Origin: an uncultured bacterium
GTDB taxonomy: Bacteria > Patescibacteriota > Saccharimonadia > Saccharimonadales > Saccharimonadaceae
Reading direction: 5' to 3'
Length of the DNA stretch: 64,000 nt
Assembly (NCBI GenBank): GCA_903899655.1
Contig: CAIUKF010000010.1
Coordinates: 1 to 64,000, forward strand
Part shown: positions 26,777 to 33,052 of the stretch, piece by piece
How the letters are laid out: each line of letters opens with the position of its first letter
Position numbering within the stretch: the stretch's first letter is position 1
Made by a program: the position numbers and the translations under genes
Notes under the pieces: model-generated
Seen by the model: the letters and a program-made list of their open reading frames with translations, nothing else
Told to the model about the DNA's origin: nothing
The model's database searches: none

Positions 26777-28063
26777 ATGAAACACACCGTCGAAGAGATA
26801 CGTTTAAAAAATGGGGCTCGAGGATTATTAATTGACGTACCTGATGCGACGACTATGAGCATGCAGTTTCAGTTTCGAGCTGGTAATCGATACGTTAAAT
26901 CCAAAGATATCGAACAAGTGGCCCACATCATGGAGCACATGGCTTTTGGAGCCAATGCTAGATTTAAAAGTGATCATGAATTTGAGTTTGAATTTACTAA
27001 AAACGGGGCTTATCGTAATGCATACACCAGTGATTTGTCGATGGTTTACGAAGCCGATTGTGCCGATTTTGAATGGGATCGAATTTTAGACCTTCAAAAA
27101 TTAGCTATTTGTCAGCCAAAATTTAACGAAGAAGAGTTACACGCTGAAAAGGGGAATGTTAGAAGCGAGCTAACAAATTATTTGAACGATCATTATCGAA
27201 TTCTGTGGCCACGTGTTCAGCAGTTGATTGGTGAAGATGTGTTAACCTTCCGTCAGTCTTTGCAGACAATCGCTGCCGTGACGCTATCGGATGTGCGTGA
27301 GCATCATCGTCGAACCCACACAACTAATAATTTGCGGTTTGTTATTGCTGGTAAATTACAGGGGCGTAAAGCTGAAATTAGACGTCAATTAGAAGATATG
27401 GCGCTACCTGAGGGTGTACGTCTGGAAGTCCCTCGTGATGAATTATCTAAGGCTGGTCCAAGTGTGATTCGTCGTAAAGATGCAACAAATATAACATTTG
27501 GCTTGTTTATGGCGATTCCTAGGGAATTAAACGATGAAGAGCTTGATGCCATGCATTATTTGAACCATATTTTAACTGGTACGATGCACTCGCGTATTTT
27601 TGGCGCCGCACGTCAAAAAGGTTTGGCATATAATATCAGTTCATACGTTGGGACGGGAATGTATGATAGCGGCTGGGATATAACTGGCCAAGTTAATCAC
27701 GAAGCGGCTGGTGAATTATTTGACATTATTGCTCGCGAGATAAAAAATGTTTTGGATGGAAAAATTGCTGATGAAGAAGTTAACGCCGCTAAGTCATTTG
27801 CGCTAGGCCGTTATCAAATGGGGGCTCAAACTGTATCGCAAATTAGCGGTTTTTACACTGGACGCTACTTTGATGATGGATTCATTAAAGATTATGATAA
27901 AGTGCCTGAAATGATTAAGAACGTCACCGTGCAACGTATGATTGATACGGCTCGGAACTTTATAAAAGAAGATATCTGGGTATTAGCGGCCGTCAGTAGC
28001 GGCGACAAACAAGAATTAGTTGATTTGAATGATAAAATAGCTACTCTCTTTGAAAAAGAGTAG
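26777..28063 (+). CDS. M16 family zinc peptidase
   Basis: The 428-residue protein has the inverted zinc motif HIMEH at residues 50-54 and Glu131 within EKGNVRSEL, exactly 76 residues after the second His, as in HXXEH-X76-E peptidases. The second half is the inactive M16_C domain (GMYDSGWDITGQV, YQMGAQTVSQISGFYTGRYF). It has no signal peptide. M16 enzymes degrade peptides; bacterial ones often act as PqqL/processing peptidases. It starts 22 nt after secA, preceded by a TTAATAT box, and may share the secA transcript. Confidence 0.9.
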   Translation: MKHTVEEIRLKNGARGLLIDVPDATTMSMQFQFRAGNRYVKSKDIEQVAHIMEHMAFGANARFKSDHEFEFEFTKNGAYRNAYTSDLSMVYEADCADFEWDRILDLQKLAICQPKFNEEELHAEKGNVRSELTNYLNDHYRILWPRVQQLIGEDVLTFRQSLQTIAAVTLSDVREHHRRTHTTNNLRFVIAGKLQGRKAEIRRQLEDMALPEGVRLEVPRDELSKAGPSVIRRKDATNITFGLFMAIPRELNDEELDAMHYLNHILTGTMHSRIFGAARQKGLAYNISSYVGTGMYDSGWDITGQVNHEAAGELFDIIAREIKNVLDGKIADEEVNAAKSFALGRYQMGAQTVSQISGFYTGRYFDDGFIKDYDKVPEMIKNVTVQRMIDTARNFIKEDIWVLAAVSSGDKQELVDLNDKIATLFEKE

Positions 28064-28072
28064 ACTGGATAT

Positions 28073-29371
28073 ATGAAGATTGCGATTGCTGGTTACGGTC
28101 AAGAAGGTAGGTCAAGTTATCGATATTGGTCGGCTGATCCGAAAAACGAATTGACTGTTTTTGATGAGAATAAACTTGAACAGATGGAACCCGATGGTGT
28201 ATTTGCCATTATTGGCACTGACGCATTTTCACAACTCAACGGGTATGATTTGGTTATACGAACAGCTGGTTTGGCGCCAAGCAAGATTGTGACTGACGGT
28301 AAAATTTGGTCGGCAACCAATGAGTTTTTTGCTAAATGTCCAGCCCAAATTATTGGTGTAACGGGCACAAAAGGTAAAGGCACAACTGCCAGTTTGATAG
28401 CGAGCATATTTGAAGCGGCTGGTAAAAAAGTATGGCTGCTGGGTAATATCGGTACGCCGTCACTTGATTCACTTCGTAATATCAAATCTGATGACATTGT
28501 AATTTACGAATTATCTAGTTTTCAATTATGGGATTTAGAATATTCGCCGCACGTTGCAGTAGTGTTGTTGATTGAGCCTGACCATTTGAACGTTCACATT
28601 GATTTTGATGACTATGTTAACGCCAAGGCTAACATACGTCGATTTCAAAAGGCAGGTGATTTGTGTGTTTTTAATCCCGCAAATGATTTATCACTGCAAA
28701 TTGCTAATGTATCATCCGAAGGTAAAGCCGTCCGTTATGCGGTTCCAGACGATGGCGGGGTATATGTTAGGGACGGTTCCTTTCGCGACAACGAACACAT
28801 AATTTGTTCAATTGATGCATTACAGTTAATCGGTAATCATAATGTCGAGAATGCTTGTGCCGCACTGACAGTTGCTAGGTTTTATAAATTAACAGATGTA
28901 GATATTGAATCTGGTTTGCGTAAATTCCAAGGTTTACCGCATCGTATTGAGTTTGTTCGTGAAATCGATGGTGTTAAATATTATAATGACAGCTTTTCGT
29001 CGGCACCATCAGCAACAGTCGCGGCAATAAAATCATTCAAACAGCCAGAGGTATTGATATTAGGCGGTATCGATAAAGGCGCTGATTTCAGTGAACTAGC
29101 CGATGCGATTGCTGGTCAAAAAAATATTAAATCAGTGATTATTATGGGCGAAATTCGTCAGAAATTAGCTGAAATCATACAAACAACAAGCCCTATTTTG
29201 CAGGTCGAAACAACTGATTTAACGACTTTGCAGCCGATTGTTGAACTAGCTAAGTCTTACGCCCAGCCTGGTGACGTTGTTGTGATGAGCCCCGGTTGTG
29301 CTAGTTTTGATATGTTTAATAATTTTTATGATCGTGGTGATCAATTTAGGAATATCGTAAATAACTTGTGA
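28073..29371 (+). CDS. murD2: MurD-family ligase, probably UDP-MurNAc-L-Ala:L-glutamate ligase (MurD2)
   Basis: The 432-residue protein has the Mur ligase ATP loop GVTGTKGKGTTAS near residue 97, the central IEPDHLNVHIDFDDYVNAKANI (lysine and His positions), IGNHNVENACAALTVA, and the C-terminal YYNDSFSSAPSATVAAIKSF block. By family it is MurD. Because it overlaps the downstream murL gene by 4 nt, I infer it adds L-Glu (MurD2 activity) rather than D-Glu. No glutamate racemase gene is in this window. A normal MurD specificity cannot be excluded from sequence alone. Confidence 0.85.
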   Translation: MKIAIAGYGQEGRSSYRYWSADPKNELTVFDENKLEQMEPDGVFAIIGTDAFSQLNGYDLVIRTAGLAPSKIVTDGKIWSATNEFFAKCPAQIIGVTGTKGKGTTASLIASIFEAAGKKVWLLGNIGTPSLDSLRNIKSDDIVIYELSSFQLWDLEYSPHVAVVLLIEPDHLNVHIDFDDYVNAKANIRRFQKAGDLCVFNPANDLSLQIANVSSEGKAVRYAVPDDGGVYVRDGSFRDNEHIICSIDALQLIGNHNVENACAALTVARFYKLTDVDIESGLRKFQGLPHRIEFVREIDGVKYYNDSFSSAPSATVAAIKSFKQPEVLILGGIDKGADFSELADAIAGQKNIKSVIIMGEIRQKLAEIIQTTSPILQVETTDLTTLQPIVELAKSYAQPGDVVVMSPGCASFDMFNNFYDRGDQFRNIVNNL

Positions 29372-30621
29372 AACAATTTATTTTCAAGTCGTATAGTTTT
29401 AACAAGGCTAACTCGTTAGCGAAATTTGAATATGGTTTTGATGACGGGCAAAATTTTATTGAAACGGTGACATTCGAGGTAGGTGAAAAATATGACGATC
29501 AAATGCTTGATAGGGCGCTTTTTTTAGCCTTTATGGTGATTGGCACGTCGTATTATAAAGCTTTTCCGTCTTCTACCGTCAAGCTGGACGTTCAATTGGA
29601 CGCTTTGCAAGTTGATTTTTTTAATAACGTTTATCAAGAGGGCATGGGACAATTTGCGTTTGAAAATAATTTAACGCGTGATGATTTGGCGCATTTTACG
29701 GCGACTGGTCCAATGCCTACGGGAACCACTCGCTATGATGGTTTAGGAGTTTTGGCTTTACAGAGTGGCGGCAAAGATTCACTTTTGACGGCTGAACTGC
29801 TAAAAAAATCTGGCAAAGAATTTACATCCTGGTATGTTTCCAGCAGCGACAATTATCCAAAAGTAATCGATAAAATTGGCTCGAAATTTGTATTGAGTAG
29901 ACGAAATATCGATCATGACGGTTTGATTCAGGCCAAGGCCGACGGAGGACTGAACGGCCATGTGCCAGTCACGTATATCGTGCAAAGTTTGGCGGTTATT
30001 CAAGCGATTCTGTTAAACAAAAACGAAGTTATTACATCGATAGCACACGAAGGCGAAGAACCTCACGCCTTTATTGGCGATTTGGCAGTTAACCATCAAT
30101 GGTCTAAAACTTGGGCGGCCGAAATGGTGTTTGCAAATTACGTATCACTTTATATTTCACCTGATTTGCATATTGGGTCATTGATTCGTAGCCTGAGCGA
30201 ACTGCGGGTGGCGGAATTGTTTGTTAAAAATGTATGGTCAGATTATGGCCATCGTTTTAGCTCGTGTAACTTGGCAAATTACAAACAGGGTGATGATAAT
30301 AGTGTATTAAAATGGTGTGGTAATTGTCCAAAATGTGCTAATTTATATTTGTTGTTTGCGCCTTTTTTGGAGGCTAGTGATTTAAAAAGTCTATTTGATG
30401 ACCAAGATTTATTTTTAAAGCCTAGCCTTGTTGATACATTCAAAGGCCTACTGGGGATTGATGGTGTCATGAAGCCCTTTGAATGCGTCGGTCAGGTTGA
30501 TGAACTACGTTTGGCATATCATATGTCGCAAAAAAAAGGTGGCTACACACAATTGCCGTTTGATGTGCCAGAATCAGATTTTGATTATTTGAAAACATAT
30601 CCATCGCAAGTGTCGTTATAA
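29368..30621 (+). CDS. murL: MurL: UDP-MurNAc-L-Ala-L-Glu epimerase
   Basis: The 417-residue protein has a PP-loop-like SGGKDS (residues 133-138), GGLNGHVPVTYI, NHQWSKT, FSSCN, KWCGNCPKCANLYLLFAPFL with the paired cysteines, and MKPFECVG. These blocks match my recollection of MurL of Xanthomonas, which epimerises the terminal L-Glu of UDP-MurNAc-L-Ala-L-Glu to D-Glu with ATP converted to AMP and PPi. The GTG start overlaps the murD2 stop (GTGA), so the two are translated together, as expected for a two-step route. Length is close to the family (about 450). Confidence 0.85.
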   Translation: MKQFIFKSYSFNKANSLAKFEYGFDDGQNFIETVTFEVGEKYDDQMLDRALFLAFMVIGTSYYKAFPSSTVKLDVQLDALQVDFFNNVYQEGMGQFAFENNLTRDDLAHFTATGPMPTGTTRYDGLGVLALQSGGKDSLLTAELLKKSGKEFTSWYVSSSDNYPKVIDKIGSKFVLSRRNIDHDGLIQAKADGGLNGHVPVTYIVQSLAVIQAILLNKNEVITSIAHEGEEPHAFIGDLAVNHQWSKTWAAEMVFANYVSLYISPDLHIGSLIRSLSELRVAELFVKNVWSDYGHRFSSCNLANYKQGDDNSVLKWCGNCPKCANLYLLFAPFLEASDLKSLFDDQDLFLKPSLVDTFKGLLGIDGVMKPFECVGQVDELRLAYHMSQKKGGYTQLPFDVPESDFDYLKTYPSQVSL

Positions 30622-30861: not shown

Positions 30862-31938
30862 ATGCAACCACTGTTAAAAAGACTGACAACATTGTTGACG
30901 CAAATTGATGCGGCTTTTGATCGTTTGGATATTGTTAAAAAGCAAGAACAAATTGCGATTTTGACTGAACAATTGGCGCAACCAGAAGTTTGGAATAATC
31001 CAACCGAAGCGCAGGTGAAAATCAAACAACAAACGACGTTATCAAATACAGTTGATCCTTGGGTAACTTTGCGCACTCAAGTTGCTGACATTATTGAATT
31101 TATTGGGTTGGGTGATGACAGTATGGTGCCAGAATTCGAACAGCAAACCTTGGCGCTGGAAAATGACTTTGCAAAATTACGCAAAGAATTGTTATATCAT
31201 GGTAAATTTGACGACCACAACGCCATTTTGCGCCTAAGTGCCGGTGTTGGTGGTACTGATGCTCAGGATTGGACTGAAATGCTGGAAAGAATGTATTTGC
31301 GCTGGGCAGATAAGTCAAATATGAAAGCAACTATAATTGAACGTTCGGCGGCCGAAGAAGCTGGCATTAAATCATCTGTGATTGAAATTATTGGTCATAA
31401 TGCCTATGGGCGATTACGTAGCGAACATGGTGTTCATCGTTTGGTGCGACTAAGTCCATTTAACAGTGATAATTTACGCCAAACAAGTTTTGCATTAGTA
31501 GAAGTTTTACCGCAAATTGATACACCCGATGAAGTTCAAATTGATGACAAAGATTTGAAAGTTGATGTTTATCGAGCTGGCGGTAAGGGAGGTCAGTCGG
31601 TCAATACAACTGACAGCGCAGTCCGTATTACGCATATTCCAACTGGTATTGTAGTGGCGATTCAAAACGAACGGTCGCAACTGCAAAATCGCGAAACGGC
31701 TATGAAAATTTTGCGGTCAAAACTAACTCAATTGCAACTTGAACAACATACAGCCAGTATCACTGATTTGCAGGCAGGTGAGTCAGCCAATTGGGGTTCA
31801 CAGATTCGTAATTACGTTTTGCATCCATACACGATGGTCAAAGATACGCGCACTAAACACGAAAACCAAAACGCCCAAGGCGTGTTGGATGGCGATATCG
31901 ATGAGTTTGCGGAAGCCTTTTTAGAGTCAGCCGCTTAA
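30862..31938 (+). CDS. prfB: Peptide chain release factor 2
   Basis: The 358-residue protein has HRLVRLSPFNSDNLRQT, with SPF being the RF2 tripeptide that reads UGA, and the catalytic [17 protein letters not shown]. The reading frame is continuous from ATG 30862, so there is no programmed +1 frameshift as in E. coli. TACAAT (30849-30854) lies 7 nt before the ATG. Its presence implies UGA is a stop codon here. Its place between secA and ftsE recalls Firmicutes. Confidence 0.97.
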   Translation: MQPLLKRLTTLLTQIDAAFDRLDIVKKQEQIAILTEQLAQPEVWNNPTEAQVKIKQQTTLSNTVDPWVTLRTQVADIIEFIGLGDDSMVPEFEQQTLALENDFAKLRKELLYHGKFDDHNAILRLSAGVGGTDAQDWTEMLERMYLRWADKSNMKATIIERSAAEEAGIKSSVIEIIGHNAYGRLRSEHGVHRLVRLSPFNSDNLRQTSFALVEVLPQIDTPDEVQIDDKDLKVDVYRAGGKGGQSVNTTDSAVRITHIPTGIVVAIQNERSQLQNRETAMKILRSKLTQLQLEQHTASITDLQAGESANWGSQIRNYVLHPYTMVKDTRTKHENQNAQGVLDGDIDEFAEAFLESAA

Positions 31939-31943
31939 CCTTA

Positions 31944-32930
31944 CTACTTTAGTTCAGTTCCACCCCATTCAACTACGGTAAACCCTTTGCGGACGAATGG
32001 TTTTAATTTTTGCCCTGGAATACTTTGAAAACTGTCGAGTGGTTTTACGACCATAAATACCCGTAATATTGAATCAGGGGTAGGGATGATTGTTAATTTA
32101 GCTGTGTCGGTATATTCAGTGCCAGCAAAATGTATCAAATTATACTTATTATTTTCGAGTTTTGGCAACCAATAAACAATCATCTCGTTGTATTCTTTGG
32201 TTGTAAGGCCGAGATTTTTTAATGTTGTCTGAAGGAATGTTTTCGTGTCCGATCCCTTAACTACGAAACCAGAATCGTAATTAGGAAATGCAGTATTCGG
32301 CAAACCTTCCCAGAATAAATAGCTGTAACTTAAACCATCTTGGTGGTTTATTAAGCTACCGTCAGGATTGGCTGTAACTTCCCAGCCGTTAATTGATCTG
32401 TTGTAATCAGGGTAAGTTGAAGTTAATTTACCATCATAATTTAACTCAACTTTGACGTTTTCGGTTTTGGTTGGATATAAATATATGACTGGCTTGTCGT
32501 CTACGGTGTGTTCAAAGTTGATGTCAGTATGTGAAGAACTGGGGTAGTATGTGTGGTAGTCGGTATTTATTAATTGTTGGTTTTCATCATGCAGTCGATT
32601 TTGATTATATGCAGATAAGCCAGTCAATGCTACGGCTAAAACCGCAAAACTACCCACCAACCATAAAAGAATCTTATTTGTTTTTGAAATAATTTTTTTA
32701 GTTTTAGATTTACTAGTAAAGTAGAAGTACAAGAATATCGTTGCAGAACAGGCTGATATTAGCGCTGAATAAACTACTAAATCAACAGGACAAATACCAA
32801 AATCTAATGGACTAAGCAGATAAGAGATAGTTATCATGGTAATAAGAATAGAGCTAAGCGCAACAGTTAATGATATCGATTGATATTGTTGTCGTTTTGC
32901 GATTGCACTTTTTGATATATTTACACCCAT
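31944..32930 (-). CDS. Membrane protein with a conserved extracytoplasmic domain of unknown function
   Basis: I start at ATG 32930 (about 328 aa), which has a GGGGT ribosome-site-like stretch upstream, rather than GTG 32969. Three hydrophobic segments occupy the first 120 residues. The rest is a domain with KPVIYLYPTKTENVKVEL, YPDYNRSINGWEV, SYLFWEGLP, MIVYWLPKLENNKYN, and the end FVRKGFTVVEWGGTE. I recall this block pattern from uncharacterised secreted or surface proteins in CPR and other bacteria, but know no function. It converges with prfB, with 5 nt between the stops. Confidence 0.75.
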   Translation of the reverse strand: MGVNISKSAIAKRQQYQSISLTVALSSILITMITISYLLSPLDFGICPVDLVVYSALISACSATIFLYFYFTSKSKTKKIISKTNKILLWLVGSFAVLAVALTGLSAYNQNRLHDENQQLINTDYHTYYPSSSHTDINFEHTVDDKPVIYLYPTKTENVKVELNYDGKLTSTYPDYNRSINGWEVTANPDGSLINHQDGLSYSYLFWEGLPNTAFPNYDSGFVVKGSDTKTFLQTTLKNLGLTTKEYNEMIVYWLPKLENNKYNLIHFAGTEYTDTAKLTIIPTPDSILRVFMVVKPLDSFQSIPGQKLKPFVRKGFTVVEWGGTELK

Positions 32931-33052
32931 TTTTATACCCCAGTTATTTATATAATCATATTGTATCACTTTATACAGTCAGTATATTTATTGGTTGTAG
33001 GTATTAATAATATATCGCTCGCTAACCCTCTTATGTTATAATTAATCAAGCA

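Follow-up and report, generated by a model that had tools for sequence, protein, structure and literature searches.

A murD–murL gene pair in a Saccharibacteria genome and its predicted route to peptidoglycan D-glutamate without MurI

The murD–murL pair and the D-glutamate genes of its genome

The first 64,000 nucleotides of contig CAIUKF010000010.1 (the window), from an uncultured bacterium of the family Saccharimonadaceae, carry on the forward strand a gene for a MurD-family ligase (murD, 28073-29371) followed by a murL homologue (29368-30621), examined here as a candidate source of peptidoglycan D-glutamate (D-Glu). The murD gene starts with ATG, encodes 432 amino acids and matches TIGR01087 at 328.8 bits (cut-off 212); murL starts with GTG and encodes 417 amino acids. 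The two reading frames share the nucleotides GTGA (29368..29371), confirming the 4-nt overlap reported in the first-pass annotation of this DNA, and the arrangement makes translational coupling of the two genes likely. That annotation had also placed the organism among the candidate phyla radiation (CPR) bacteria and recognized MurL sequence blocks in the downstream protein, and both statements held. The closest named relatives are Candidatus Saccharibacteria metagenome-assembled genomes (MAGs; 55–59% identity), and residues 2-388 of the murL product match NCBIfam NF041275 (MurL) over 387 positions (E 2.1e-72, 244 bits), a score below the family cut-off of 700 bits, which was set for Xanthomonadales. 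No NCBIfam or Pfam family other than MurL was matched at E<=0.001.

All five quoted motifs are present, and their cores vary little or not at all across 36 Patescibacteria MurLs. SGGKDS (residues 133-138, 29764..29781), in which G135, K136 and S138 are invariant, is the predicted ATP/pyrophosphate site, consistent with a match to the PP-loop fold. GHVPVT (197-202) is followed by NHQWSK (242-247, 30091..30108), with H243, Q244 and K247 invariant, and by WCGNCPKC (316-323); in KPFECVG (369-375, 30472..30492), C373 is invariant and K369, P370, V374 and G375 are nearly so. The nearly invariant Cys300, Cys317, Cys320 and Cys323 (30265..30336) form a predicted QueC-type zinc site, since the modelled structure matches QueC and their spacing resembles that of the QueC site. 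An AlphaFold2 model of the window MurL (predicted local distance difference test score 94) was matched by Foldseek to QatC, QueC, TtuA and other PP-loop enzymes, including QueC 3bl5 with a probability of 1.00 and a template modelling score of 0.62 by target length, and 6 of the 36 MurLs gave weak Pfam QueC matches. By this model, MurL is predicted to adopt a QueC-like PP-loop ATP-pyrophosphatase fold. The MurLs of the window family form a separate, divergent subfamily with a long stem and SGGKDS in place of GGGKDS. MurL homologues on long branches in genomes G190 and G067 (L077:2980-4329 and L083:2992-4200) lack the WCGxCPKC cysteines, reading WSPESSKS and WDLRSSKA instead, and may be altered or inactive.

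The 924.5-kb genome (97.4% complete) was searched for the standard sources of D-Glu. None of TIGR00067 (glutamate racemase, MurI), PF01177 (the Asp/Glu racemase family) and PF01063 (Aminotran_4, the family of D-amino-acid transaminase) had a match in it at E<=10, while all three matched in control genomes; the predicted absence of murI and of a D-amino-acid transaminase was thus borne out genome-wide. A divergent MurI in the same genome was rejected on the same search, which left nothing at this threshold. Six Mur-ligase-fold genes were found (murC, murD, murE, murF, murT and a folC), the window murD being the only MurD among them, together with an alanine racemase gene (alr). Because the Mur ligases and alr are present and MurI and the transaminase are absent, the organism appears to make a peptidoglycan that requires D-Glu while lacking both standard sources of it. 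A MurT-like protein (lipid II isoglutaminyl synthase) is encoded at L004:1012-2277 (G000 C2), so this D-Glu is probably amidated.

Distribution of MurL and MurI and their common slot

MurL and MurI are mutually exclusive across the phylum and within the window family. Among 380 sampled genomes of the phylum, MurL was found in 58 and a full MurI in about 116, and none carried both, against 17.7 expected (hypergeometric P = 7.5e-11, relatedness ignored). In the window family the corresponding numbers were 63 and 82 of 199 genomes, with two double carriers against 26 expected (P = 7e-16, relatedness again ignored). Apparent MurI matches in about 12 MurL genomes of the phylum were weak (E above 1e-16) and mostly partial, and were taken as other members of the Asp/Glu-racemase superfamily. 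One family double carrier, G442, was set aside as a true MurI plus MurL genome: its MurL gene is bordered by genes for ATP-grasp ligases and has no murD in its vicinity, and the MurD of this genome is of the MurI type. This paralogue (L286:2100-3461, reverse strand, 454 amino acids), flanked by two predicted ATP-grasp ligases that were recognized by eye, may epimerize a peptide built by those ligases. The remaining double carrier, G438 (L283), combines murD, murL and a gene resembling murI at a single locus, possibly a transitional state or an assembly oddity.

MurL is closely tied to MurD by gene position. In the phylum sample, 41 of 59 MurLs adjoin MurD and a further 11 are fused with it (52/59 together), and these fusions have the order MurL-MurD, whereas those of the window family (G420, G469 and G495) have the order MurD-MurL; as the two orders are opposite, the gene sequences indicate that fusion arose at least twice. 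Single-protein fusions occur at L055, L059, L066, L070, L072, L085, L093 and L094 and at L291, L295 and L304, the MurL-MurD order being found in several families. MurL also adjoins MurD at L215, L220 and L225, in MAGs labelled Lachnospiraceae and Bacilli (labels as given for the contigs).

In the window family, the widely conserved gene order is secA, M16 peptidase, murD, X, prfB, ftsE, ftsX, where the slot X is empty or holds either murL, encoded on the same strand, or murI, encoded on the opposite one. The same-genus relatives G209 and G261 have murI in this slot, and the M16 gene lies upstream of murD at MurL, MurI and empty-slot loci alike. In the window, the slot is framed by the M16-family peptidase gene (26777..28063, forward strand; Pfam PF00675/PF05193) and, downstream, by prfB (30862..31938, forward strand; TIGR00020, 439 bits), identified as the conserved boundary by synteny. 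Loci with no detected MurI or MurL, some with empty slots, keep a D-Glu-type MurD (L121, L122, L127, L342, L345 and others). Between prfB and ftsE, the window has a gene for a 341-amino-acid protein without a Pfam match (31944-32969, reverse strand), which among the loci compared has a relative in the same place only in G470.

The glutamate pocket and mosaic ancestry of murD

The interpretation given in the first-pass annotation was upheld in part, but its naming of the ligase as MurD2 by analogy with Xanthomonas was not supported. The determinants as defined in Xanthomonas oryzae MurD2 (Glu197 and Arg358, with Pro433 and Phe435) were largely replaced in the window MurD: alignment to E. coli MurD placed Asp170 (28580..28582) at the E. 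coli D182/X. oryzae E197 site and Lys335 (29075..29077) at the E. coli K348/X. oryzae R358 site, both in the D-Glu-type state, and Ala stands at the P433 site, leaving the residue corresponding to Phe435 as the sole common determinant. What stood was the link to MurL, through other pocket residues and the ancestry of the C-terminal domain. L-Glu specificity of the window MurD would follow from correlation with its partner and not from the known determinants. Arg at the R358 site is found in 111 of 123 MurL-linked MurDs of the phylum and named contigs, against Lys in 34/34 comparison MurDs, but it was rejected as a universal marker: 24 of 40 MurL-linked MurDs in the window family have Lys, and Streptococcus mutans MurD has Arg and uses D-Glu (PMC8788868).

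Comparison of these 40 MurL-linked MurDs with 47 from MurI genomes of the family revealed full separation at E. coli sites 319 (Phe/Tyr versus Ile), 322 (Ala/Ser/Asn versus Thr/Ile/Val) and 422, the last represented in the window by Phe418 (29324..29326; Phe in 40/40 MurL-linked and Tyr in 47/47 MurI-genome MurDs). At the T321 site, 39 of the 40 have Ser or Ala in place of Thr. In the window, the pocket loop NDSFSSAPSA (residues 305-314, 28985..29014) has F308, S310 and A311 where all 47 MurI-genome MurDs have Ile, Thr (T321) and Thr/Ile/Val, so that T321S, Y422F and I319F set the window MurD apart from all MurI-paired MurDs of its family. In simulations of E. coli MurD, T321, K348, S415 and F422 touch a Glu mimic (PMC3527612). 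Over 239 MurD loci, which are not fully non-redundant, K348 together with T321 occurred in 69/69 MurI-genome MurDs and in 0/159 MurL-linked ones; outside the window family, MurL-linked MurDs that keep K348 have likewise lost T321. Genome G469 provides an internal control, as the MurI-type pocket is seen in its stand-alone MurD and the MurL-type pocket in the copy fused to MurL. Independent pairs on a MurD tree built without pocket columns agreed 6:0 with one tie (sign test P = 0.031).

The ancestry of the MurD C-terminal, Glu-binding domain (from about residue 287; 28931..29368, forward strand) follows the partner gene on segment trees, from which the pocket columns were likewise removed. With 98 rows, residues 1-298 of MurD gave a tree that needed 18 partner changes, and the C-domain gave one that needed three. 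By segment, starting at the N end of murD, the numbers were 14, 11, 12, 6 and 1, and the flanking genes again required many (M16, 11; prfB, 13). The low number at the C end of murD and the high numbers in its N-part, M16 and prfB place the partner-following piece, as judged from these trees, between the last third of murD and prfB. For a 36-row set, a single clade of MurL-type rows was rejected by the N-part (P value of the approximately unbiased test (p-AU) 7.5e-42), whereas on the C-part tree a branch with support of 78, which is not strong, had every MurL-type row on the same side; groupings of the N-part were rejected by the C-part (p-AU 0.004 and 7e-5). For MurD pairs of the same type, C-part identity climbed with N-part identity, whereas for cross-type pairs it stayed at about 40–45% at any N-part identity (r = 0.11); sliding identities crossed near residue 300, which is the domain border. 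On these data, the Glu-binding domain appears to have been exchanged by recombination inside murD.

Interpretation, alternatives and known systems

We consider it probable that the window pair represents a MurD/MurL-type route to peptidoglycan D-Glu that operates without MurI. L-Glu would be attached by MurD and then inverted in place by MurL, which would use ATP to adenylate the alpha-carboxylate of L-Glu and so make the alpha-proton acidic. MurL of X. oryzae is ATP-dependent and forms AMP as a product; its discoverers, who saw no known domain in the protein, suggested that the alpha-carboxylate is adenylated (PMC8788868, PMC5808125). The predicted QueC-like fold fits and supports this proposal, and we infer the adenylate mechanism from the X. 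oryzae enzyme and the fold together. The sequences themselves show the gene content, the exclusion between MurL and MurI, the common slot, the pocket code and the mosaic structure of murD, whereas L-Glu specificity and the epimerase reaction in the window organism are inferred.

Several observations weigh against this reading. The Asp and Lys of the window MurD reproduce the switched state of X. oryzae MurD2, in which E197D plus R358K yields a D-Glu ligase (PMC8788868). Site 226 is Glu in 120 of 121 other MurLs and Ala or Gly in those of the window family, where the adjoining loop is also altered. Eight window-family loci with neither MurI nor MurL retain a MurI-type MurD, so absence of MurI alone is no proof, and 2–3% of the genome is missing from the assembly. 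In addition, the correlation of MurL distances with the MurD C-domain is no stronger than that with the N-part.

The window MurD might still be D-Glu-specific, with the divergent MurL converting free L-Glu, or another glutamyl compound, one-way to D-Glu at the expense of ATP. This would suit D170 and K335 as well as the long stem and altered loop of window-family MurLs. Yet the same MurL subfamily stands beside Arg348-type MurDs in close relatives, and one MurL function would have to serve both; an unchanged pocket would be expected of a MurD still using free D-Glu, whereas pocket sites separate MurL-linked from MurI-genome MurDs without exception; and X. oryzae MurL did not racemize free Glu (PMC8788868). 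We regard this alternative as improbable. Slightly less probable still is that D-Glu or muropeptides are acquired from a host bacterium and used by MurD, with MurL serving another pathway. The family genomes that keep a D-Glu-type MurD without MurI or MurL, and the G442 paralogue in its ATP-grasp operon away from murD, speak in favour of this reading, but the overlap of murL with murD in the window, their adjacency or fusion in 52 of 59 copies, the exclusion of MurI by MurL and a MurD pocket that follows MurL all argue against it.

As to evolution, in the window family the MurL route and MurI have repeatedly taken each other's place in one slot between murD and prfB. This is accompanied by an apparent exchange of the MurD C-terminal domain through recombination within murD, which would change Glu chirality and its enzyme together. 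Alternatively, the likeness of the C-domains could reflect convergence, each lineage having adapted its own murD under selection after gaining murL. The pocket is under obvious selection, and the MurL distances, which are no closer to those of the C-domain than to those of the N-domain, agree with convergence; however, the trees were built with the pocket columns removed, cross-type C-part identity is flat with a crossover near residue 300, and the C-part data reject the N-part groupings, which leaves convergence unlikely, if less so than either functional alternative. Close co-inheritance of murL and the MurD C-domain was not confirmed by the distance correlation, and in G414 and G417 the MurLs are 83% identical while the MurDs are less alike, neither ranking among the nearest of the other. 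By these sequence comparisons murL has also moved by itself, and the C-domain and murL did not always travel as one piece. With this proviso, the evidence leans towards recombination and towards the view that Glu stereochemistry in Saccharibacteria is an exchangeable module, consisting of the MurD C-domain plus MurI or MurL and swapped inside murD between conserved neighbours, in which loss of T321 with K348 kept would be a second solution for the use of L-Glu beside the known K348R.

The MurL papers found list it in Gammaproteobacteria, Alphaproteobacteria and actinobacteria, with low-similarity relatives elsewhere, and no report of an L-Glu/epimerase route in CPR bacteria was found in the literature searched. 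A 2024 study on the glutamate racemase of Candidatus Saccharimonas aalborgensis is cited in PMC11974145. Measured against the searchable literature, what is new is the presence in CPR bacteria, the recurrent replacement at a single slot, the pocket code of two sites, the recombinant murD and the link of MurL to a known fold. The findings would extend the MurL route to CPR bacteria (58 of the 380 sampled genomes), sometimes as one fused protein. Closely related MurI and MurL lineages offer a natural experiment on how a pocket reads D- versus L-glutamate, with a simple two-residue code to test, and the QueC-like fold suggests a structural explanation, itself open to test, of an epimerase once described as having no known conserved domain.

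Among known systems, the closest is MurD2/MurL of X. oryzae (XOO_1320/XOO_1319; Feng et al. 2017, reviewed in PMC8788868), which has in common with the window the MurL motif blocks, an adjacent MurD-family ligase and a genome without MurI or D-amino-acid transaminase. The window MurL is 30–32% identical to that of Rhodanobacter, where the order is murL-murD and not murD-murL, and in place of the E197/R358/P433 determinants the window MurD carries the substitutions that set it apart from MurI-paired MurDs. The canonical MurD/MurI route of same-genus relatives (G209, G236 and G261) has the same murD locus, the same slot where murD and murI adjoin, and MurD N-terminal and central domains of common ancestry with those of the window, whereas the window has MurL for MurI, and the C-terminal domain of its MurD differs in descent and in its Glu pocket. 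Finally, QueC (7-cyano-7-deazaguanine synthase), QatC and Cap9 resemble MurL in the predicted PP-loop ATP-pyrophosphatase core and the four cysteines of a likely zinc site, at about 13–16% identity and without the extra N- and C-terminal parts of MurL. QueC chemistry proceeds by carboxylate adenylation, the common ground with the proposal for MurL, but the predicted outcome for MurL is epimerization and hydrolysis, whereas QueC-like enzymes form a nitrile or an amide.
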